Below are positions 1 to 9,399 of a DNA stretch of 64,000 bases, in pieces. The stretch lies in contig NZ_UWPJ01000029.1 of NCBI RefSeq assembly GCF_900606115.1, forward strand, positions 62,001 to 126,000, in the 5' to 3' direction. The notes under the pieces are model-generated. The model was not told the DNA's origin and did not search any database. It was given only the letters and a program-made list of their open reading frames with translations. The position numbers were made by a program, and so were the translations under genes. This stretch comes from Pigmentiphaga humi. Lineage in GTDB: Bacteria > Pseudomonadota > Gammaproteobacteria > Burkholderiales > Burkholderiaceae_B. How positions within the stretch are numbered: position 1 is the stretch's first letter; every line of letters begins with the position of its first letter.

Positions 1-460
1 TGCGCTGGCACACCAGCCTTGCTAGATGGAGCGGCAGTTCTTTGACGGCGAGCGGATACCAGTTGATCAGCCGTTGCTCATCCTTGTCACTGAGCCTCTT
101 GCATGCATCGGCAAAGACATCTTCGGGGTCAATGCGATTGCCGACGAGGAAGGTGTTCCAGTCCATCTGCAACACCGTGCAGTCGAAATCCTCTTGCAGC
201 TTGGCTGCATTCTTGAGCTGCGCACGGTGCCAGCGATCGAGAAGCAGAACCTCCAGGAAGCTGAACATCAGGGCGGCGAACGCGATGAACGGCTTTGAAG
301 GGAGGAGCAAGGCTGACACGATCAGGCCGATGATCGGGAACACGAGCGAGATGATTAGGCTCACCGCTTGCACATTTTTGGCCCTGCGGTAGATCAGCGT
401 CCTGGCACGCAGCAAGTTGAGCATGCGCGTCTCCACCTGCTTCTGGTCGATTTTATTCAT
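1..460 (-). CDS. S-4TM family pore-forming CBASS effector (C-terminus beyond window)
   Basis: The reading frame starts at the ATG at 460-458 and stays open to the left edge, giving about 153 residues of a longer protein. A basic N-terminal helix is followed by two hydrophobic segments at roughly residues 29-53 and 55-73, then a conserved block with EDFDCTVLQMDWN. That block matches the family pattern of S-4TM (SMODS/SLOG-associated four-TM) proteins, which act as membrane effectors in CBASS. The second pair of membrane segments would lie beyond the window. It is the last visible gene of the CBASS operon, 57 bases after the E2 gene. By family knowledge, a cyclic nucleotide made by the CD-NTase would trigger membrane disruption and death of the infected cell. 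The family call is fairly sure; pore formation is inferred. Confidence 0.82.
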   Translation of the reverse strand, partial: MNKIDQKQVETRMLNLLRARTLIYRRAKNVQAVSLIISLVFPIIGLIVSALLLPSKPFIAFAALMFSFLEVLLLDRWHRAQLKNAAKLQEDFDCTVLQMDWNTFLVGNRIDPEDVFADACKRLSDKDEQRLINWYPLAVKELPLHLARLVCQR

Positions 461-517: not shown

Positions 518-973
518 TTAGGCCCAGCGCTTCTTGCGTAGCTGCGGATGCTCGCCGCCGCCAGCCCATACCCCAGTGGTCAGCCAGTTCTCGAAGTGCC
601 ACAGCCACTCCGAAGTCCAGGCGATGTAGGTGTCGACCAGCTTCATCTGCGGTACCCACTCACGCTGTTTCGGCCACCAGAGACAAAGCTTGGTGCCGGG
701 GCCGTTGTTGGGGTAGATATGGGGCAGCGCAACTTCGTCGGTCAGAGTCGTCAGGTCAGGACTTAGTACGAACATTTCTGGTGGGCGCGAATCGGGTGTC
801 AAGCGCAGTTCACATTCGTAGACACGACCGAAGTCGCTTGGTGCTAGATGGAATCGATAGCGCAGGGCGCGACCTGACAGAAACATCAGCCGGGCACCAT
901 CAAGAGGCAAGGTGCGCAGTTCCATGGCTCGCTGGGCCAAGGTCGGTATGGGCGGAGCCGGGTAAGGCGTCAT
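518..973 (-). CDS. CBASS-associated E2-like ubiquitin-conjugating-fold protein
   Basis: This 151-aa protein has the features of the stand-alone E2-like proteins of short type II CBASS. YPN at residues 87-89 resembles the E2 His-Pro-Asn element, followed by a candidate catalytic Cys97 in TKLCLWWP and a Trp-rich C-terminal helix region. Its ATG overlaps the CD-NTase stop by one base (TGATG), so the two are translationally coupled. No E1 (Cap2-like) or JAB peptidase (Cap3) gene is visible, which fits systems in which an E2 alone modifies the CD-NTase C-terminus and raises its activity. Genes beyond the left edge cannot be excluded. The activity is known for the family; the partner here is inferred from the overlap. 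Confidence 0.83.
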   Translation of the reverse strand: MTPYPAPPIPTLAQRAMELRTLPLDGARLMFLSGRALRYRFHLAPSDFGRVYECELRLTPDSRPPEMFVLSPDLTTLTDEVALPHIYPNNGPGTKLCLWWPKQREWVPQMKLVDTYIAWTSEWLWHFENWLTTGVWAGGGEHPQLRKKRWA

Positions 974-2232
974 CAGTGGCCGAAATACGTATGAGGTCGC
1001 GCTGCGACACTGACCGGTGCGGCTACCGCCGACGAGATCAGCGTCACCCGGCCAGCAGCGTGACTAGTCTGGCGCCGCTGGGTCTGGTCCTGCTGGATAG
1101 CGCCCGCGCAGCGAGGTCCGAATGCGCTCTCCAGCGCCTTGAGCAAGACATCCATGCCCTGGTGATTCTCGATGGCATGCAAGATGCGTTTCAGATCCTC
1201 GATCAGGCGGCGGTGCCACGCCCAGAACGCCTCCTGCCGCGCCGAAGAATTCATGCCGCCGGCCAGGTTGTCTCGGGGGGCGGACGGGTTGGGCAGAACC
1301 CATTTTTCGGAACTGTCGGAGCAGGAAATCCGCTCGAAGTGCAGCGGCATCCGTTCCACGATATCGAGCAGCAACTCCAGGGGACTCTCGTGCGGCTGCG
1401 GCGCTTCTACCGCGTAGGCCATCGCGGCCAGCGTCGTCAGGAAGACGGACGAAGGCGCCATGTCTTGGCTCCCCTGCGCAACGCCGAAGGCTACATTGCG
1501 GTGCAGCTTCAACAGTTGCACCAGTCGGCACAGTAATCGGTCAAACACTTCCTGCGCATCAGGCAGCGGCGCCACTTCCGCGCGCGTCACCGAATCCATC
1601 GCCTCCGAGAAGCGCACCACGTCTGTGAAATTTGGCGAGATCGCGGCAGCGATATCGAAATGCTTCGCGTACCCGCGCGGGTTCGTCGAGTCGAAGAGCC
1701 GCAGTTCGCGGTCAGGGATGAGGCCGTGTGTCTCGCCGAACGGCGCGGCCAACAACGGCGAGTCAATGACCGGCGCGATGTCGGCACACATGCCTTCGGC
1801 GTATTCCAGCGTCGCACAACGTTCCCAGCGGCGCAGCTGGAGGCCATGCGCATCGGCGTAGCGGGACAAGGCGCGATGCAGTCGGTCGAGAAGCAAGGCT
1901 GGTCCGTGCTCACCGTCATACTTGTGACGCGCCCCAGATGCCAGGCGTGCGATCAGATCGATGTCGAAACCCTCCCGCGAGCCATCGCGGGGCCGCACGA
2001 CGGTGCCCAACTGCCGGGAACCGTGGGCGTGGATTTGGATGAGATCGCCCTGGAACTCCGGGCAGGCCGAGAGGAACTCGCCGGTGCTGTTGTAGGAACG
2101 CTCCAAGGCCGACAACTGGGTGGCCGTGGGCTCATTGGCGCGGGCGATGACGTCCACTAGGTGGAAGAAGCGCGCCGATGCCCGCATCGAGATGCGGGGG
2201 CGCTGAGGGAGAGTCACAGGTTCGCGGATCAC
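973..2232 (-). CDS. CD-NTase (cGAS/DncV-like nucleotidyltransferase), CBASS signal synthase
   Basis: The 419-aa protein carries the SMODS nucleotidyltransferase core: GSRQLGT at residues 71-77, the paired metal-binding aspartates D90 and D92 in GFDIDLI, and the third aspartate D151 in CADIAPVID. The fold makes a cyclic di- or trinucleotide from NTPs on phage infection. The product cannot be predicted from the sequence. The C-terminal half is the usual helical part and ends in a flexible tail reading ARPHTYFGH, with the only nearby glycine one residue from the end. This matters because E2-type partners act on CD-NTase C-termini. It is the second gene of the operon, 57 bases after the small YjzC-like gene and overlapping the E2 gene. 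Confidence 0.92.
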   Translation of the reverse strand: MIREPVTLPQRPRISMRASARFFHLVDVIARANEPTATQLSALERSYNSTGEFLSACPEFQGDLIQIHAHGSRQLGTVVRPRDGSREGFDIDLIARLASGARHKYDGEHGPALLLDRLHRALSRYADAHGLQLRRWERCATLEYAEGMCADIAPVIDSPLLAAPFGETHGLIPDRELRLFDSTNPRGYAKHFDIAAAISPNFTDVVRFSEAMDSVTRAEVAPLPDAQEVFDRLLCRLVQLLKLHRNVAFGVAQGSQDMAPSSVFLTTLAAMAYAVEAPQPHESPLELLLDIVERMPLHFERISCSDSSEKWVLPNPSAPRDNLAGGMNSSARQEAFWAWHRRLIEDLKRILHAIENHQGMDVLLKALESAFGPRCAGAIQQDQTQRRQTSHAAGRVTLISSAVAAPVSVAARPHTYFGH

Positions 2233-2289: not shown

Positions 2290-2454
2290 TCAGCGCTTGT
2301 GCTTCGTGGGGTCCACAAGCTTGTAGCCTTGGCCCGGCCGCGGCGTCGGCGGCAGCGGCTTGCCTTTCACGCCGGTCACTTCATTGCCGGTGCCCGGGTT
2401 CTGGTACTGGCCGGACTTCGGTGCCGGCGTGCCGGGCTTCAACGTCTTGCTCAT
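2290..2454 (-). CDS. Small YjzC-like protein heading the CBASS operon
   Basis: A 54-residue, Pro/Gly/Lys-rich protein beginning MSKTLKPGTPAPKSGQY, followed by a GNEVTGVKGKPLPPTP block. The pattern 'KPG..APKSG.Y...GNEVT.VKG.P.PP' resembles the small YjzC family, although the cysteines of the metal-binding versions are absent. The ATG is at 2454-2452 and the stop at 2292-2290. It is the first gene of the CBASS transcript, 57 bases before the CD-NTase, and about 90 bases from the inverted repeat shared with the divergent regulator. No function is known to me. Being first in the operon it should be made in quantity, so it could be a regulator, scaffold or modification substrate. Confidence 0.7.
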   Translation of the reverse strand: MSKTLKPGTPAPKSGQYQNPGTGNEVTGVKGKPLPPTPRPGQGYKLVDPTKHKR

Positions 2455-2544: not shown

Positions 2545-2587
2545 AAGTTCGGAAATATCAAAATAATAATTCTGGACTTCCGAACTT
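2545..2587. promoter_or_regulatory. Inverted-repeat operator between CBASS operon and its regulators
   Basis: AAGTTCGGAA at 2545-2554 and its exact reverse complement TTCCGAACTT at 2578-2587 face each other across an AT-rich 23-base spacer. A partial third copy (ATCCGAAC) lies at 2616-2623, just before the regulator's ATG. The site sits in the gap between the divergent CBASS operon and the XRE gene, where a repressor of both would bind. The repeats are read directly; binding by the XRE protein is inferred. Confidence 0.6.
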
Positions 2588-2627
2588 CTGGAGTCAAGTA
2601 TTTTTTTTATTGGAAATCCGAACAAGC

Positions 2628-2954
2628 ATGCCAACACTGGGCGAGAAAGTCCGCACATTGCGGAAGAAAGCAGGCTTGACGCTAGAACAGTTCGCCGAGC
2701 AGATCGGTGCGTCCAAGTCATCCGTATGGGAACTGGAGAACAAGGAAAAGGCCCGCCCGTCCGCCGACCGGATCAATGAGGTGGCCAAGGTTTTGGGCGT
2801 GACGCCCGAGTTCCTGATGAACGACGACGTCGCCGAGCCCTCGATCGACGTGGCCGACGAAGCCTTCTTTCGCAAGTACCAATCGCTGGATACCGGGGTG
2901 AAGCAGCAGTTGCAGGAGATCCTCAGCGTTCTGGACAAGAAGGCTGGCTCTTGA
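2628..2954 (+). CDS. XRE-family repressor, CapH-like
   Basis: A 108-aa protein starting MPTLGEKVRTLRKKAG. The helix-turn-helix covers about residues 8-60 (LTLEQFAEQIGASKSSVWELE), followed by a C-terminal helix that probably dimerises. The start at 2628 is chosen because the HTH begins right after it, while longer upstream frames run through the AT-rich operator region. The stop overlaps the TTG start of the next gene. An HTH regulator paired with an ImmA-like protease and divergent from CBASS is the arrangement of the CapH/CapP module, in which CapH represses CBASS and is destroyed by CapP after DNA damage. The role is inferred from this arrangement. Confidence 0.85.
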   Translation: MPTLGEKVRTLRKKAGLTLEQFAEQIGASKSSVWELENKEKARPSADRINEVAKVLGVTPEFLMNDDVAEPSIDVADEAFFRKYQSLDTGVKQQLQEILSVLDKKAGS

Positions 2955-3817
2955 AAGTGGGGCTTTCCGCATCGGGCGAGGCGATCAAGCTGGCGAAACT
3001 GTGGCGCGCCGTCCACGGCCTGACGTTTCCGATCAACGCCGGAGCGCTGGCGCAGGAATGGTCCAGGAACGTTGCGCCCGATGCGCCGATCGGGGAGTTG
3101 CAAGCCCGAGAGTTGCCAGGATTCGAGGGCGGGTTGTTCTGGCTGAAGGAGCGGAAGGTCTGGGCGCTGCTGTACCACCCGCACGAAGACCTGCCAGGAC
3201 GAGCGAACTTCACTGTCGCTCATGAGTTCGGGCACTACGTCCTGCATCGCAAGCTGCAGGAGGCGTTCCAATGCTCCCAGAGCGCGACACTAGGGATCAC
3301 CAGGGCCAAGATCGAGCGCGAGGCAGACCAGTTTGCGTCGTACCTTCTCATGCCGATCGACGACTACACCCAGCAGGTGCGTGGGCGCCGTATCACTCTT
3401 GATCTTTTGGGTGAGTGTGCTGACCGTTACGGTGTCTCTCTCACGGCCGCCATCCTCAAATGGTTGGAATTCACGGATCAGGCAGCCGTCGCCGTCATGG
3501 GGCGGGAAGGGATGCTGCACTGGTGGAAGGCCAGCAGCAGTGCAAAGAAGTATGCGTTGGGAGCGCTTCGGGAGGGTATGGAACTGCCCTCGGCCTCGCT
3601 TGCCGTGGACCCAGCACAAGCGACTTCAACCGCAGACTACCGCTTGGGCGTGGAGCACGCCGATGGCGTGTGGCCCATCAATCTTCCCCTGCGCGAGATG
3701 GTCGTGCTGTCGGACCGATACGACATGTCCATATCGCTGTTGGTTCTCGACGCACCTGGGGTGGATCATCCAGACGAGCCTGACGAAGACATGACGACCA
3801 ACTTACCCTCGTTCTGA
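2951..3817 (+). CDS. ImmA/IrrE-family zinc metallopeptidase, CapP-like
   Basis: The 288-aa protein has the zinc motif HEFGH at residues 91-95, followed by EREADQFASYLLMP at about 122-135, which supplies the third ligand typical of ImmA/IrrE proteases. A C-terminal domain of about 120 residues, probably the sensor part, follows. Translation starts with TTG at 2951, overlapping the regulator's TGA. In the CapH/CapP pair the protease cleaves the repressor when it senses DNA damage, releasing CBASS transcription; ImmA does the same for integrative-element repressors. Target and trigger here are inferred. The divergent CBASS operon makes CapP the better reading than a mobile-element ImmA. Confidence 0.87.
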   Translation: MKVGLSASGEAIKLAKLWRAVHGLTFPINAGALAQEWSRNVAPDAPIGELQARELPGFEGGLFWLKERKVWALLYHPHEDLPGRANFTVAHEFGHYVLHRKLQEAFQCSQSATLGITRAKIEREADQFASYLLMPIDDYTQQVRGRRITLDLLGECADRYGVSLTAAILKWLEFTDQAAVAVMGREGMLHWWKASSSAKKYALGALREGMELPSASLAVDPAQATSTADYRLGVEHADGVWPINLPLREMVVLSDRYDMSISLLVLDAPGVDHPDEPDEDMTTNLPSF

Positions 3818-4307: not shown

Positions 4308-5675
4308 TCAGCCCGTCAGAACGCTGTAGCGCTTGAACAGAGCCTCAAAGAACGTCTTCACGTCGGCCTTCGCCGTCGGCACTTGCAGCTCCGCGGCTCC
4401 GAAACGAAAAACTTCATAGCCTGCGAGCTTCAGTTCGCGATCGGCCTTAACCATCTGCGCATAGCGCTGCACATCGGCGTTGCCTGCGGTGTCCGCGTAG
4501 TGGTGCTTACCATCGACCTCGATGACGACCCGAACGCCCTGTGGCAGCAGGAGCAGAAAGTCCATGCGAAATCGCAAAAGCGCATCCGGCCCTCTCTCCT
4601 TGATCGTACGTGGGTCCCAGTGCAGCCAAACTTCCGGCAGTAGCGCAGGCAGGTTCGGAACCGCACCGCGAAACCCTTCGAAGAAGGCATCGAAAAGTAG
4701 GGTCTGCGGCGGCGAGTTACGGGGCAAGCTGGCCTTGAGGCGCCTGTACAGTGAGAGCTTGGCCTGCGTTGCATCGGCGATCTGCTCGGTGTCGCTCCAC
4801 CACTGCTGCAGATCGTTCCAGCGCAGTCCGTCGTTGCCGATGAAGCGGTCATAGACGAGTACCTTGTCCGCGTTGGTGACAATCTCGACGTCGTTGTCCA
4901 GCGCGTCGCGGAAGCGCAGGTCGGGCTTGTCGGGTGAGGCGAAGATGAGATTCTTCGGCCGGCTCCTAGTCGCCGCGTGCAGTGAAACCAATGAGAAGAC
5001 CGGGTAACCGCCTTCCAAGTCGGTCTCGCGCAGTTCGACGCTGCAACCGCGCAGTGGCTCGTTGACGCAAGCGACGAAGTGGCGTTGCGCTGCCTCGTCG
5101 GGACGCACGTCGGCGGAAGCCAACCCCTCCAGGAACAGCGCGAAGCGCCGGTCGGAAGCGTCATAAGCGCCTAACTGGTCGAACAGCGTTTCGGCCGGCC
5201 AATCCTCTGGGTTCCGATGAACGTGCTGCTGGATTTCATCGCGCAGGCCTGTGGGCTTGCCGCCTATGAGGTGCATCCAGTCATCGGCGTCCAAGATCCA
5301 CAGGCGTTCCAGCAACTCGTCGAACCTCCGAGCATCCCCATACAAGTCTTCGCTATTAAGCCTGCGCGCGATCTCGCGCCGATACCGCTTCGGAATGGGC
5401 GGGCATGCACTGTCGCTCCAGAGGATGTCTTGAATCTGGTTGCGCGTAGTGGCATTGGGCGGGTGGCGGATCAGCAGTTTGCGGGCCACTGCAGGCAACT
5501 CGGTATCCGCAAGCGCATTGAAGCTGGCTGTCATTCGTTCCCGCTTGGAGCCATCATCGGGAGGCACGGGCAGGCCCAACTCTTCGCAGAGTGTTGGCAG
5601 CATAGTGTGCGTGCCAGCATCCTTCAGACCGGTTACCAGGGACTCCAACAAGTTGCGAAGTTGAGCGTAGTCCAT
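4308..5675 (-). CDS. AbiJ-N-terminal-like / PD-(D/E)XK nuclease-like putative abortive-infection protein
   Basis: About 455 residues from the ATG at 5675 (MDYAQLRNLLESL). A longer frame exists, but this start lies 11 bases after the preceding gene's stop. The N-terminal 80 residues (leucine-rich start, TMLPTLCEELGLP, GSKRERMTASF) resemble the AbiJ N-terminal domains found in abortive-infection proteins. The C-terminal domain carries D372 in FRMDFLL and E386/K390 in VIEVDGKHHY, followed by KADRELKLAGYEVFRF, a PD-(D/E)XK nuclease pattern. The middle is unrecognised. Its place directly behind an AbiEi/AbiEii-like pair suggests it is the effector of a three-gene defence operon. Nuclease activity is inferred from motifs only. 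Confidence 0.65.
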   Translation of the reverse strand: MDYAQLRNLLESLVTGLKDAGTHTMLPTLCEELGLPVPPDDGSKRERMTASFNALADTELPAVARKLLIRHPPNATTRNQIQDILWSDSACPPIPKRYRREIARRLNSEDLYGDARRFDELLERLWILDADDWMHLIGGKPTGLRDEIQQHVHRNPEDWPAETLFDQLGAYDASDRRFALFLEGLASADVRPDEAAQRHFVACVNEPLRGCSVELRETDLEGGYPVFSLVSLHAATRSRPKNLIFASPDKPDLRFRDALDNDVEIVTNADKVLVYDRFIGNDGLRWNDLQQWWSDTEQIADATQAKLSLYRRLKASLPRNSPPQTLLFDAFFEGFRGAVPNLPALLPEVWLHWDPRTIKERGPDALLRFRMDFLLLLPQGVRVVIEVDGKHHYADTAGNADVQRYAQMVKADRELKLAGYEVFRFGAAELQVPTAKADVKTFFEALFKRYSVLTG

Positions 5676-5686
5676 GGGGCCGTAAC

Positions 5687-6559
5687 TCAACCTCGCAGCG
5701 CCATCGCACGTAGGAGAGTATCGATCTGCCCAAACGCATCCTGTTGCCACTGTTCGGGCGTGCGATCACCCAGCGCATGCGTGTCTTCGACGAAACGCCT
5801 CACGCAGGTGGGACCATGTCCTTCGAAGGCGTCAAACTTGTCGGCGATGTGCTGGAAACCTCGTTCGCCGCTTGCGTGTCCCAGGAGCGGAAGGCATTGC
5901 TGCGCCAGAGCCTCAATGCCATCAGGATAGTTCCGCACACAGTAGTAGATGTCGTAGGCATCCTTCTGCTTGTAGCGGCCCGCCAACGCATGGCCTTTCA
6001 TTGCCAGTAGTGCAGGGATAGAGCACACCGCAATCTCCACGCGGTTGGTCCCTCCGTTCGGCATCGGGCCCGCCACCGCCACCAGTTGATAGAACCGCAT
6101 CGCCAAGTCAGCGCCGTCAGCACGCTGTACGGCAAAGTCGCTGATCAGGGGAGGATTGTTCTTGACGATCTCTGCATCGCGCGGCATCAAGAAATCGACC
6201 ACGATGTCGATCCCCTCTCCACCGTCCTTCACGGGAACCTGACGAACCAGTTGGAACCGTCGAAGCCCGTCGCGCTGGGCATATCCATGACCCTGAAGCG
6301 CACCGATCAAGGTTGCGTATTCACCGTCGCCGAGAGCTTCTGCATCAAGTCCAATGTCTACATCGAGTGTGCCGACGTGGGGCATCTCCTCGTTGGCCAG
6401 TAGCAGCCAGGGGACTGCACCACCTATGATGGCGAACTTGCCTTTGAAGCTACCAAGTATCTGGCCGATCTCGATCAGCACGGATTTCACGGCCGCAGTC
6501 GTGCGGTCGTCATATTCGGCGGCCGATTGTGGTTCCTGGGGGGGTGTCATTTGGGCCAT
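5687..6559 (-). CDS. AbiEii-like nucleotidyltransferase
   Basis: A 290-aa protein with the DNA-polymerase-beta-like core: IIGGAVPWLL at about 44-53, the metal pair D66/D68 in TLDVDIGL, and the later YKQKDAYDIYY element typical of AbiEii/MenA-type toxins. AbiEii toxins are nucleotidyltransferases; some add nucleotides to tRNA ends. The gene overlaps the end of the AbiEi-like gene. Starting at the fourth codon (6550) would give an ATGA overlap, so either start is possible. It lies second in the minus-strand trio, 11 bases before the nuclease-like gene. Its substrate is unknown. Confidence 0.8.
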   Translation of the reverse strand: MAQMTPPQEPQSAAEYDDRTTAAVKSVLIEIGQILGSFKGKFAIIGGAVPWLLLANEEMPHVGTLDVDIGLDAEALGDGEYATLIGALQGHGYAQRDGLRRFQLVRQVPVKDGGEGIDIVVDFLMPRDAEIVKNNPPLISDFAVQRADGADLAMRFYQLVAVAGPMPNGGTNRVEIAVCSIPALLAMKGHALAGRYKQKDAYDIYYCVRNYPDGIEALAQQCLPLLGHASGERGFQHIADKFDAFEGHGPTCVRRFVEDTHALGDRTPEQWQQDAFGQIDTLLRAMALRG

Positions 6560-7608
6560 GTAAGCTTTTCCTTGCGCAGGTGGTCGGCGGCCTCGGCGCC
6601 GCGTTCGCCGGCAATGGAGAGGTCGAGGTAGGTTTGAACCAGGCTTGTGCAGACTGCGCCCGGCGCAGGTTCAATGGTGTCGGCAAACAATCCCGTGTCT
6701 TTCGGCACGGTGATGACCACGTTCTCGCCCTTCGCGGCAGGCGTGAGTTTCAGCGTTGCCTGAAGCTCACGCAGACCATCTTCGTCGGCGAAGAAATAGT
6801 GCGTGCCGGTACGACCGTAGGGTGAAAGCCACTGCGCTGCCGAGAACGATGCGAAAGCAGCATGCCCGGGACCGTCTTTGGCGCGCAATGCGCTACGGGC
6901 AGCTTCTTCGAACGCGCTGCCATGCAAAGGCGTGTAGAACCGCAGCCGCTCACCTGGCGGTGCTGTGTAGCTGTCCCGCCATGCGTCCACCAGTGCGTCG
7001 GGATCTGAGAGAACGAGGCCGTCATCTGAGGCGCGTGCCCATTCTCGATCGATCAACCCGGTGCGCACATTACTGACGTGCCCCAGGCTGACTCCGGAGA
7101 TTTCTGACAGCTCGGTGACACGCCAAGCACGGCCTGGCTCGCGCAGCATGGTGCGCAAAACCTGGGCCGACTTCGGCCTGAACAACGACTTGAGTTCGCG
7201 TTGCTCCGCCGCAGGCTTGTCCGTCACCATGCGTTCGATGAACACGCCGCGGAAGGCGATCCGGGCGTTTCCTTCCAGGTCGAGATAGCTGACACCCTTC
7301 TCTTCGCACAGTTGCCTTACCGCAGGTGAGATATAGGGGGCGATGAAGACGGGCGTTGCCTCGGGAGTTCGCTGCGCAACGTAGTTCCGCAGTTCCAGCA
7401 GCGCGGACCGGGCGTACCGCGGTTGCCCGTTCGACTTGTACTCGCAGATGAGCAGATGCTGCCGCCCGTCCACGAGCAGCCGGGCGATAAGGTCCGGCTC
7501 CCAATCGTCGGACATAGCCTCGGCTTCGATCCCTTCGACCTGAAGGATCGGGATCTTTGCAAGCAAACGGCGCAGTGCCTCACCAGCCCGAGCCTCAGAC
7601 TCTTTCAT
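6547..7608 (-). CDS. AbiEi-like antitoxin/regulator with nuclease-like N-terminus
   Basis: 353 residues from the ATG at 7608. An earlier in-frame ATG at 7647 is rejected because AGAGG lies 8 bases before 7608 and the earlier start would run through an operator palindrome. The N-terminal domain has PD at residues 38-39 and E56-Y-K58, a PD-(D/E)XK-like pattern, then DLEGNARIAF. A winged-helix domain (RVTELSEISGVSLGHVSNV) follows. Proteins of this shape are annotated as type IV antitoxins of the AbiEi family, which repress their own operon through inverted repeats. Two matching palindromes sit just upstream. It overlaps the AbiEii-like gene by 13 bases. Confidence 0.78.
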   Translation of the reverse strand: MKESEARAGEALRRLLAKIPILQVEGIEAEAMSDDWEPDLIARLLVDGRQHLLICEYKSNGQPRYARSALLELRNYVAQRTPEATPVFIAPYISPAVRQLCEEKGVSYLDLEGNARIAFRGVFIERMVTDKPAAEQRELKSLFRPKSAQVLRTMLREPGRAWRVTELSEISGVSLGHVSNVRTGLIDREWARASDDGLVLSDPDALVDAWRDSYTAPPGERLRFYTPLHGSAFEEAARSALRAKDGPGHAAFASFSAAQWLSPYGRTGTHYFFADEDGLRELQATLKLTPAAKGENVVITVPKDTGLFADTIEPAPGAVCTSLVQTYLDLSIAGERGAEAADHLRKEKLTWPK

Positions 7609-7620
7609 TAAATTGGCCTC

Positions 7621-7638
7621 TTTCAGCATTCGCTGAAA
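7621..7638. promoter_or_regulatory. Operator palindrome 1 of the AbiE-like operon
   Basis: TTTCAGC and GCTGAAA face each other across four bases, directly upstream of the ribosome-binding site of the AbiEi-like gene. It shares its half-sites with the palindrome at 7688-7705. Autorepression by the AbiEi-like protein is the likely use; this is inferred. Confidence 0.6.
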
Positions 7639-7687
7639 GTACCACATTTTTTGAAGAGCATCGCCAAAATTTCACTTATAAAGTCAA

Positions 7688-7705
7688 TTTCAACATATGC
7701 TGAAA
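7688..7705. promoter_or_regulatory. Operator palindrome 2 of the AbiE-like operon
   Basis: An 18-base near-palindrome, TTTCAACATATGCTGAAA, 67 bases centre-to-centre from the first. Both fit TTTCA(A/G)CAT..GCTGAAA. Paired sites around the promoter are typical of AbiEi-type cooperative autoregulation. Confidence 0.6.
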
Positions 7706-8236
7706 CCATTCCATAGAGTGAAATTGCCTGTAGACGAAAGGAGCAAAGACTGGGCTCCATGGAGCGGAAACCGCATGGTGCCTGTTGGAGCAGCAGCTTG
7801 CCAGTGTGCGCGGAACTGGTACAAAATGCGGTACATTCCCGCTCTCCGAACGGGAGTAACCTTTTATAAATCAATGGGTTGGGTGCTTGATGTTGTTCCC
7901 TTCACCCGCTCCAGTCCGCTGACATCCAGGGTTTTCAGGGATGGCTAGTTAGTGATCAAGCTCTTGATCTTCCAAAAGAATCTCCGGATCCGCATAGTCT
8001 GCCGACGAAGGCCGTTAAACTGCTTATTCCCCTCGGCGCTGGGATGAGACACACGCCCTTTCTCCGCTCCGCTGCAAATGGCGGGAGAAAATCATAGTTG
8101 TCGCTTTCGCCTTGCAATTTGTCGGGCGGCTGCTTCGCGTCTGAAGGCGGTTGCCAGAATTGCTGGTATCCGACTGAATGAGAAGGATCGAAAGCTGCCG
8201 ATGATGACAGACAGCTGTCGTTCCTGTTTAGTCCGA
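7706..8236. other. Gap without a supported gene; possible decayed element boundary
   Basis: About 530 bases with no frame that has both a start context and a recognisable product. The hexamer GGTACA occurs twice, at 7818-7823 and 7830-7835, followed by a CCCG/CGGG hairpin at about 7838-7854. It could be a leftover recombination site of an integrating element, but no integrase is present. Confidence 0.35.
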
Positions 8237-8707
8237 TCACCGTCTGCGTTTGGCTGCAAGCACAAGCGCATTCCAATCATCCGGCGGATCCCCTCTATCC
8301 AGCATCTTCCTGAATACACGATAAGCATCGTCGTCGCTTTCGTAGGCGCGTTTTGTGTCTTCATTATTGACCCACGCTATCACGATGATCTTGCTGGCCG
8401 CGTGATATCGAAAGAACAATCGGTGCTGTTGGAAGAATTTGGCTCGGAACCAGTGTTTGTGCTGGTCTCTCAGCGTTCCACCTTGCCGGTATTCCGCTCG
8501 CGTCGGGTCTTGGGGGATGATCTCGAAAGCCAATCGCGCAATGGCAGCCAGGCGCTTCGTGGCATTGCGTCGATGGTATCCGTCCGGATCCTTGCGTTTC
8601 AGGGATTCGACTTGCTTCTGCAGACTATCCAGTTGCGCACGAAAGAGCGGATGCAGGTAGATGGTCCAACCGTTGACGGTAACGGGGGCGCTCGATTCAG
8701 CCGTCAT
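8237..8707 (-). CDS. yhaV: Type II toxin YhaV family ribonuclease
   Basis: A 156-aa protein with the family pattern throughout: VNGWTIYLHPLF near the N-terminus, KRKDPDGYHRRNATKRLAAI in the middle, HWFRAKFFQQHRLFFRY, then VIAWVNNEDTKRAYESDDDAYRVFRKMLDRG.PPDDW. YhaV is a RelE-like mRNA endoribonuclease neutralised by PrlF (SohA). The length matches the E. coli protein. The start overlaps the end of the antitoxin gene by four bases, so the two are coupled. The region around it lacks other mobile genes. Confidence 0.93.
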   Translation of the reverse strand: MTAESSAPVTVNGWTIYLHPLFRAQLDSLQKQVESLKRKDPDGYHRRNATKRLAAIARLAFEIIPQDPTRAEYRQGGTLRDQHKHWFRAKFFQQHRLFFRYHAASKIIVIAWVNNEDTKRAYESDDDAYRVFRKMLDRGDPPDDWNALVLAAKRRR

Positions 8708-9036
8708 TCGTCATCTGCGGACAGCGGTGCATCGAAGTCGATATTTCCAGCCTCGCGCGATGCCTTTTCCATGGAAGCACGCAAGTCGCTCGATAAGGGC
8801 ACTAGGCGTTCCGGATGCGACGCGATGTCGTGGGCGAGGAAAGCCAGGAATGCTCCAAGCGCGGGGTCTTCATCATCGGCATCTTCGGCACGCGAGAGCA
8901 CCACCTCTCCGTTGGCTCGGATGCTGTAGTGGATCTTGTCGCGTTTTTTCAGGCCAAGGGCGCGTCTTACCGTTTCAGGAACGGTGGTCTGGTAGCGTTC
9001 GGTAAGGGTGGACTCAACGTCAAGGGTTGTGGGCAT
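8704..9036 (-). CDS. prlF: PrlF-family antitoxin of the YhaV pair
   Basis: 110 residues from the ATG at 9036. A longer frame would extend through the operator palindrome, so the internal start is chosen. The N-terminus (LTERYQTTVPETVRRALGLKKRDKIHYSI) is an AbrB-like swapped-hairpin DNA-binding domain, and the acidic C-terminal part would wrap the toxin. PrlF neutralises YhaV and the complex represses the operon. The large palindrome 23 bases upstream is the expected operator. Confidence 0.9.
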   Translation of the reverse strand: MPTTLDVESTLTERYQTTVPETVRRALGLKKRDKIHYSIRANGEVVLSRAEDADDEDPALGAFLAFLAHDIASHPERLVPLSSDLRASMEKASREAGNIDFDAPLSADDE

Positions 9037-9058
9037 GATGATCTCGCAAGAGTAGATG

Positions 9059-9090
9059 AGACATGGTAATGCAATTGCATTACCATGTCT
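9059..9090. promoter_or_regulatory. 32-bp perfect palindrome, PrlF/YhaV operator
   Basis: Positions 9059-9090 read identically on both strands, centred on GCAATTGC with outer arms AGACATGG/CCATGTCT. It lies immediately upstream of the PrlF gene. AbrB-type antitoxins bind such symmetric sites, so autoregulation by PrlF or PrlF-YhaV is likely. The symmetry is exact; binding is inferred. Confidence 0.75.
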
Positions 9091-9399
9091 ATGTAGAGTC
9101 GCAATCGAGGCCATGGCAGCTATCACGACGCCCCCCGATGTCTCTCACCGACTGGTGCTGACCACGGAATCCAACCGCGGTGGTCGACGGTGTTGGGACG
9201 GGTGTGCCCCGTTTCTGTCCCGTTGGGCGGTAGTGATTGAATCTCCAGCCTGATCGGTTCATTAAGGGCTAAGGCCAACAGGCCAGTGGCGGCCTGTCCA
9301 ATTCCACATGGCCTGATGCCGAAGCAACCCGTTGTGAGTTCATGACGGCTACCCACCGCTCGGACAAACGTTTCGGCCCGGGTTGATATGTCGTCTTGT
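9091..9399. other. Gap without a supported gene
   Basis: About 310 bases between the PrlF operator and the repeats ahead of the XRE gene. Only short overlapping frames without motifs are present. I see no RNA gene or insertion-sequence end. Confidence 0.45.

Follow-up and report, generated by a model that had tools for sequence, protein, structure and literature searches.

What does a gene for a protein of 54 amino acids do when it stands in front of the CD-NTase of a CBASS operon? The question is raised by a 64,000-nucleotide stretch of the Pigmentiphaga humi genome (contig NZ_UWPJ01000029.1, positions 62,001 to 126,000 of the forward strand), referred to here as the window. Immune operons are described by their cyclases, conjugation enzymes, and effectors, and studies restricted to core genes would miss a gene of this kind. 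An earlier note on the window called the protein YjzC-like and treated it as a part of CBASS, with modification by the lone E2 among its suggested roles. In the analysis reported below, the protein seems to be a helper common to bacterial immune systems and no component of just one, because its relatives are also found first in several unrelated immune operons.

The operon and its controller

The operon is ordered 54-aa gene, CD-NTase, lone E2, S_4TM effector, and second CD-NTase, and it diverges from a capH-capP pair (2628-3817) that was absent from the earlier note. The features are as follows.

L118:8096-9538 (G000:C51), wholly past the window's left edge: second CD-NTase, SMODS and AGS_C, 480 aa, closing the operon after S_4TM
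1-460, minus strand: first part of the S_4TM effector (Pfam S_4TM 3.5e-89), the whole of which is 302 aa at L118:9553-10461, beyond the window's left edge
518-973, minus strand: lone E2 (PADLOC E2 PDLC00863, E = 1.5e-52; no Pfam match)
973-2232, minus strand: CD-NTase, SMODS (PADLOC Cyclase PDLC00817, E = 3e-217; Pfam SMODS 5e-8)
2290-2454, minus strand: gene of the 54-aa basic, cysteine-free protein, first in the operon (ORF and substitution pattern)
2545-2587: perfect 10-bp inverted repeat AAGTTCGGAA / TTCCGAACTT (arms 2545-2554 and 2578-2587), candidate CapH operator
2569-2597, minus strand: promoter-like TTGACT-17-CAGAAT, reading into the 54-aa gene and overlapping the inverted repeat
2628-2954, plus strand: capH-like XRE repressor (PADLOC capH 1.4e-29 on ORF 2481-2954, match from residue 49)
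2951-3817, plus strand: capP-like M78 peptidase (PADLOC capP 2.6e-69; Pfam M78 4e-16)

Judged by its content of a SMODS CD-NTase, an E2 without E1 (Pfam and PADLOC found no E1 among the five operon genes), and an S_4TM effector, the operon is a type II-short CBASS, and the small gene is its first, with the CD-NTase starting 57 bp further on, as the earlier note had placed it. With the known type II-short CBASS under CapH-CapP, it has in common the CD-NTase, the lone E2, the membrane effector, and the divergent capH-capP; it differs in the extra first gene and in the second CD-NTase (SMODS-AGS_C) at its end, which makes two cyclases in one operon. By the profile matches listed above, the controller is an XRE repressor with an M78 peptidase, divergent from the operon. 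The intergenic gap between the capH-like gene and the 54-aa gene is 173 bp, and the promoter-like pattern was found once in it, against a mean of 0.3 in shuffles. Both the inverted repeat and the promoter-like site are largely kept in eight relatives (an alignment of nine sequences), the second hexamer of the site being variable among them, and the lie of the repeat across the site is consistent with a candidate binding place for CapH at a shared promoter. An integrase-like reading with an in-frame stop, recognized by eye at L118:6640-7500 (plus strand), adjoins the operon and is consistent with an island.

Coding evidence, family membership, and predicted fold

The small gene is 165 bp long, with its ATG ending at 2454, a Shine-Dalgarno-like AAAGGGGA before it at about 2460-2467 (judged by eye), and a product that reads MSKTLKPG...PTKHKR. 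Compared with it, five of the eight relatives in the same cassette carry 4-8 synonymous and 0 non-synonymous changes, the remaining three give dN/dS of 0.02-0.075, and relatives in other settings give 0.09 (L038) and 0.08 (L039); for L043, synonymous sites are saturated and yield no ratio. Because non-synonymous changes are few or absent and dN/dS does not exceed 0.09 against these relatives, the substitution pattern indicates that the ORF is a true protein gene under purifying selection and no chance ORF. A leader peptide or attenuator was ruled out because the amino acid sequence is conserved. The earlier description of a small, basic (pI 10.4), cysteine-free, and conserved 54-aa protein is thus borne out.

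The name YjzC-like fits the family better than it fits the window protein. The YjzC profile, Pfam PF14168, was matched by 46 of 67 relatives at E ≤ 0.01 (best 2.2e-8), whereas the window protein scored 12.8 bits (E = 0.16), below the gathering cut-off of 25 bits; searched at E ≤ 0.01, the window's own genome gave no match to the profile, and among the control genomes Bacillus subtilis gave matches. The window protein resembles the YjzC family in that both are small basic proteins and differs in falling below the cut-off and in lacking the GPRGG stretch. The alignment of the 67 sequences has eleven invariant columns, and 105 of the 108 relatives of 50-75 aa are free of cysteine. A search of titles and abstract openings, with most subscription papers and preprints outside it, found neither a published function of YjzC nor anything in print on the family in immunity. 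YjzC does not occur in PMC13373217, which gives the genes found behind CapK-CapS.

AlphaFold2 modelled the window protein as three main strands without a helix (pLDDT 85.8, pTM 0.62), and a long-type relative in the same strand pattern (pLDDT 83.1, pTM 0.63). Foldseek matched the window model to no known fold at E ≤ 0.001, VIA structural comparison gave best Z values of 2.5 and 3.4 for the two models, and a sequence search of solved structures returned one row at chance level (E = 1.3). In a search of viral models, the sole match of the long-type model at E ≤ 0.001 was a 'YjzC-like protein' of a phage contig (E = 3.7e-5). We infer that the protein would be a binding protein, because it is predicted to be all-beta, is small and basic, and has no catalytic site evident.

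A relation to zinc ribbons was considered and rejected, and is at most a lead. The pattern GPRGG...PPTPKPG is similar to the CxxCG...PPCPKCG of a zinc ribbon, and the weak VIA rows of the window model include rubrerythrin and MCM (Z 2.1-2.4). The metal-binding cysteines of a zinc ribbon are missing from the nearly cysteine-free family, a search of 241 loci (2.4 Mb) gave no convincing relative with such cysteines, and the long-type model raised no zinc ribbons.

Distribution and neighbourhoods of the relatives

Among 300 genomes of the order, 7 had a relative of the small gene, one of them being the genome of the window. Relatives were also found in 36 plasmid records, and a search of 50,697 phage records gave no match; the plasmid-type gene was present in 1 of 5,426 Escherichia coli genomes. 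On genome contigs, 120 stretches with a relative were confirmed, and the 80 whose relative was most like the window protein were used; this ranking and the use of two peptide patterns mean that the window clade is over-represented. The calling of ORFs was crude, and the fetched region was short in some survey loci (3.3 kb for L162, 4.1 kb for L203).

Thirteen profiles were scanned around 114 loci; with nine members of the window clade and three survey loci set aside, 102 were counted. Of these, 13 had a CD-NTase, Ubl, ThiF, or E2 match downstream, always on the same strand; CapP lay upstream and divergent in 14, with four further CapP placements that differ; and CapK/CapS-like genes were present at two. 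At least one partner (CapP in place, CapKS, or one of the scanned immune genes) was recorded at 22 of the 102 loci and none at 80, although L015, L039, and L046, counted among the 80, have partners by other evidence. Several profiles of this first scan include their own seed loci, and one of its CD-NTase seeds was in a wrong frame; the scan was re-run with a corrected seed and with self-matches excluded: the immune genes were then downstream on the same strand in 11/11 loci, and CapP was upstream and divergent in 13/14, the exception (L015) being two copies on one record. Some loci are not independent, L014 and L080 having one protein, as do L078 and L079.

Where the distance was measured, the CapH match started 121-235 bp from the small gene in 21 of 23 loci. 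The intergenic regions of L010, L019, and L216 have strong palindromes, a palindrome is also present in that of L164, and those of L049, L099, and L166 have weak ones; none was found in L078 and L085. In Pfam tallies of the neighbours, from which 19 loci (window clade, near-duplicates, and cut records) were left out, the commonest families among 43 next-downstream genes in range were Multi_ubiq (5) and SMODS (4), and those among 51 upstream divergent genes were the XRE HTH families (9) and M78 (4).

The payloads behind the small gene are unlike one another and comprise type II-short, II-long, and III CBASS, Bub-like and Bil-like operons, and SIR2. The larger classes are these:

II-short or similar CBASS: L118, L038, L058, L099, L164, L166
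Bub-like: L014, L071, L080, L081, L085, L094, L108, L261

Within the first class, L038 has a CD-NTase, an E2, and a 4TM effector, L058 and L099 have a CD-NTase and an E2 (direct comparison), and L164 and L166 have a patatin, a CD-NTase, and an E2-like protein with SEC-C, for which the E2 call is weak (Pfam E of 0.09 and 0.002). PADLOC assigned L037 (phospholipase, DncV-like cyclase, E1-E2, JAB) to type II-long CBASS and L044 (cyclase, HORMA, TRIP13, TIR effector) to type III CBASS; a further SMODS match follows the CBASS genes of L037. L046 carries a SIR2_2 protein, the PADLOC candidate PDC-S25.

Bub-like and Bil-like are names assigned here from the content of Multi_ubiq, E2, ThiF, and DUF6527 and from PADLOC BilC and BilD. 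A relative of the small gene comes first in these operons, and in several Bub-like loci CapHP- or CapKS-like genes lie beside it; their payload is unlike that of the window, and the small gene is not among their described parts, as far as we have seen. In L085 and L071, the genes are Multi_ubiq, E2 (Prok-E2_E, below cut-off in L085), and ThiF. In L081 and L108, HATPase-like and wHTH-like proteins, common to both loci and in L081 below the Pfam cut-off (E = 0.002 each), are upstream of the small gene, Multi_ubiq, ThiF, and DUF6527, an order that, with the names assigned here, fits a Bub operon under CapK-CapS as these controllers are described in PMC13373217. The two records come from distant groups (Citrifermentans for L081, Chitinophagaceae for L108), and CapK/CapS-like genes, small gene, and Bub-like genes occur together in both. 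The Bil-like locus, L039, consists of a Ubl-like ORF (by eye), a 147-aa ORF, BilC (6e-8), and BilD (6e-26), and the profile scan found no CapP there.

Three further settings were recorded in passing. In L216, CapHP and the small gene are followed by a 292-aa protein (6855-7733) that by eye looks like E2 plus SEC-C; it has no relevant Pfam match and is itself a seed of the profile that finds it. L123 (genome G220) holds a divergent family member. Upstream of it, on the same strand, the CapH and CapP profiles match weakly; downstream there are CD-NTase-like and E2-SEC-C-like matches, and SMODS gave no match in that genome. On a Rhodococcus plasmid (L009) and a Clavibacter plasmid (L013), family members are near YfbU-family genes.

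Small plasmids present the gene in a stand-alone setting. On the 4,000-bp Klebsiella quasipneumoniae plasmid L019, it is the sole annotated gene between a CapH-like gene and the replication region on its strand, and an unannotated 54-aa ORF across the record's start (23-187) follows it; this second product could be the real output. The CapHP and small-gene cassette, whole or in part, was found in six plasmid records. The 30 plasmid records with a CD-NTase relative and the 36 with a small-gene relative have no accession in common in the two listings.

Surveys started from other genes

The CD-NTase survey comprised 22 loci, namely the window's, a further 10 among 369 genomes of the class, and 11 among 399 genomes belonging to G665's family. 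The small gene was near four (window, G665, G539, and G507) and absent from 18. The window and G665 are not counted as independent, G665 being of the same clade, with its gene known beforehand and itself the centre of the second CD-NTase search, and among the 20 loci found independently of the small gene two (G539 and G507) carry it. The gene therefore does recur with CBASS, and from the gene's side the same association is seen at L037, L038, L044, L058, L099, and L123. In the CapP survey, where CapP-type denotes full-length places at E ≤ 1e-39, four of 20 places had the small gene divergently beside CapH (window, G539, G507, and G630) and 16 did not; seven of the 20 were near a CD-NTase, three of these with the small gene. 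The other M78 loci, part of the weaker places, had it in 0 of 25, a weak contrast with the CapP-type places when the window is left out (3/19 against 0/25, Fisher 0.07). Multi_ubiq was found in 12 of 369 genomes, with the small gene at one of the 12 loci, in the order CapH-CapP-gene-Ubl-ThiF-DUF6527 on one strand, and absent from 11.

At the rate of 7 in 300 genomes and an even spread, the chance of these associations would be 9e-7 for CD-NTase (2/20), 3e-10 for CapP (3/19), and 8e-4 for Multi_ubiq (1/12). Allowing for an island effect of 100-fold raises these to 9e-3, 3e-4, and 8e-2, respectively. G539 and G507 are counted in both the CD-NTase and the CapP surveys. The small gene is optional in every kind of system surveyed.

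Discussion

We think it somewhat probable that the small gene is a portable output of Cap controllers, induced early on damage and acting by itself, and that it is the promoter-proximal gene of the CapH-CapP switch. Its position, the gene order, and the plasmid case together point to an output of damage controllers that would need neither CBASS nor E2. Also in favour are the purifying selection, the three surveys started from other genes, the variety of payloads, the strand and placement of the neighbours, and the likeness between the window and L039, which is confined to the gene. On the other side stand the 80 loci without recognized partners, the majority of CapHP, CD-NTase, and Multi_ubiq loci, which have no small gene, the weak contrast between CapP-type and other M78 loci, the higher chance figures under an island effect, the second ORF of the 4-kb plasmid, and the intergenic regions of L078 and L085, in which no palindrome was found. 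According to PMC13373217 and PMC10233336, CapH is a repressor, and CapP, stimulated by single-stranded DNA, cleaves it and so relieves repression of the operon. In the window's operon, the 54-aa protein would accordingly be the first product made once DNA damage or phage infection is sensed. Its action would be independent of cyclase, E2, or any one effector, since relatives of the gene lead immune operons that work by unrelated mechanisms and can also accompany CapHP with nothing else. It would be an early-acting protein of immunity or stress and may bind a target common to damaged or infected cells, such as nucleic acid, a cellular housekeeping protein, or a protein of the phage, with an effect that may be protective, toxic, or braking.

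In a bolder form, offered tentatively as a possibility, one small protein would come first whenever a Cap controller senses damage, would have an anti-phage or cell-protecting action of its own, would be common to CBASS II-short, II-long, and III, Bub-like, Bil-like, and SIR2 systems, and would be able to work alone on small plasmids. A first output common to unrelated immune systems, if true, would point to a shared step after damage sensing. By description only, the small uncharacterised YegP-type genes behind the damage-sensing CapK-CapS (57 of 443 capKS loci in PMC13373217) are alike in being small genes behind a damage-sensing controller; the 54-aa gene differs from them, so far as that source describes them, in being mostly beside CapHP and often followed by an immune operon.

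That the protein instead tunes its own switch, for instance as an inhibitor of CapP, as an aid to CapH, or through the shared promoter, seems unlikely to us. The gene does lie beside the controller in CapHP loci, at the distances from the CapH match given above, and directly behind the CapK/CapS-like genes of L081 and L108. A feedback role, however, would leave the circuit of the 4-kb plasmid with no annotated output, and it has to contend with a gene that accompanies at least two controller types, with many loci in which no controller was found, and with the 16 CapP-type loci that have no small gene.

We hold it to be decidedly unlikely that the gene is cargo carried by defence islands and plasmids, often ending up behind an inducible promoter and functionally unconnected with the payload. 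Its presence in plasmid records and the 80 loci without recognized partners are in keeping with cargo, as is the block of likeness between the window and L039, which has 83% DNA identity, is limited to positions -25 to +179 of the gene, and is the only likeness that L039 shows to the 5.5 kb surrounding the small gene of the window. The order and strand of payload (11/11) and CapP (13/14) in the re-run and the purifying selection within the CBASS cassette speak against cargo.

A partner specific to CBASS or E2, acting as a substrate or as a controller of the lone E2 or the CD-NTase, is very improbable: Multi_ubiq and SMODS are the commonest next-downstream families, and L216 has CapHP, the small gene, and an E2-like protein with no cyclase found, but six close CD-NTase and E2 loci (L152-L157) have no small gene (five of the six also no CapP), and the protein is unlike a beta-grasp modifier, both predicted models having strands only where a ubiquitin-like fold has a helix, and the window protein ending in KHKR with no C-terminal glycine for conjugation, processing to an inner glycine being possible. 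Dependence on E2, at first suggested by the Bub-like and E2-SEC-C loci, was given up in view of the type III CBASS and SIR2 settings. We found no E2 in the annotated gene sets of L044 and of the small plasmids, including those with CapHP alone, and the profile scan of L046 gave none, a scan that can miss E2s, as it did the E1-E2 protein of L037. Since an E2 could not be located in some of the settings, the suggestion that the protein is modified by the lone E2 is unsupported as a general role, and the assignment to CBASS holds for the window's operon without being specific, the gene being first in Bub-like, Bil-like, and SIR2 loci as well and alone with CapHP on small plasmids. The protein may still be an inhibitor or a general cofactor, the other roles suggested in the earlier note.

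Other defence-like genes in the window

Three other places on the minus strand of the window resemble defence genes. At 4308-5675, an AbiJ_NTD3 protein (8e-39), which also matches DUF559 weakly, probably represents a further defence gene. A pair at 5687-7647 has weak AbiEii and AbiEi_2 matches below cut-off and is type IV TA-like. The YhaV toxin at 8237-9126 (Pfam 1e-59) has an AbrB-like ORF before it, recognized by eye, and the two are likely a TA pair.
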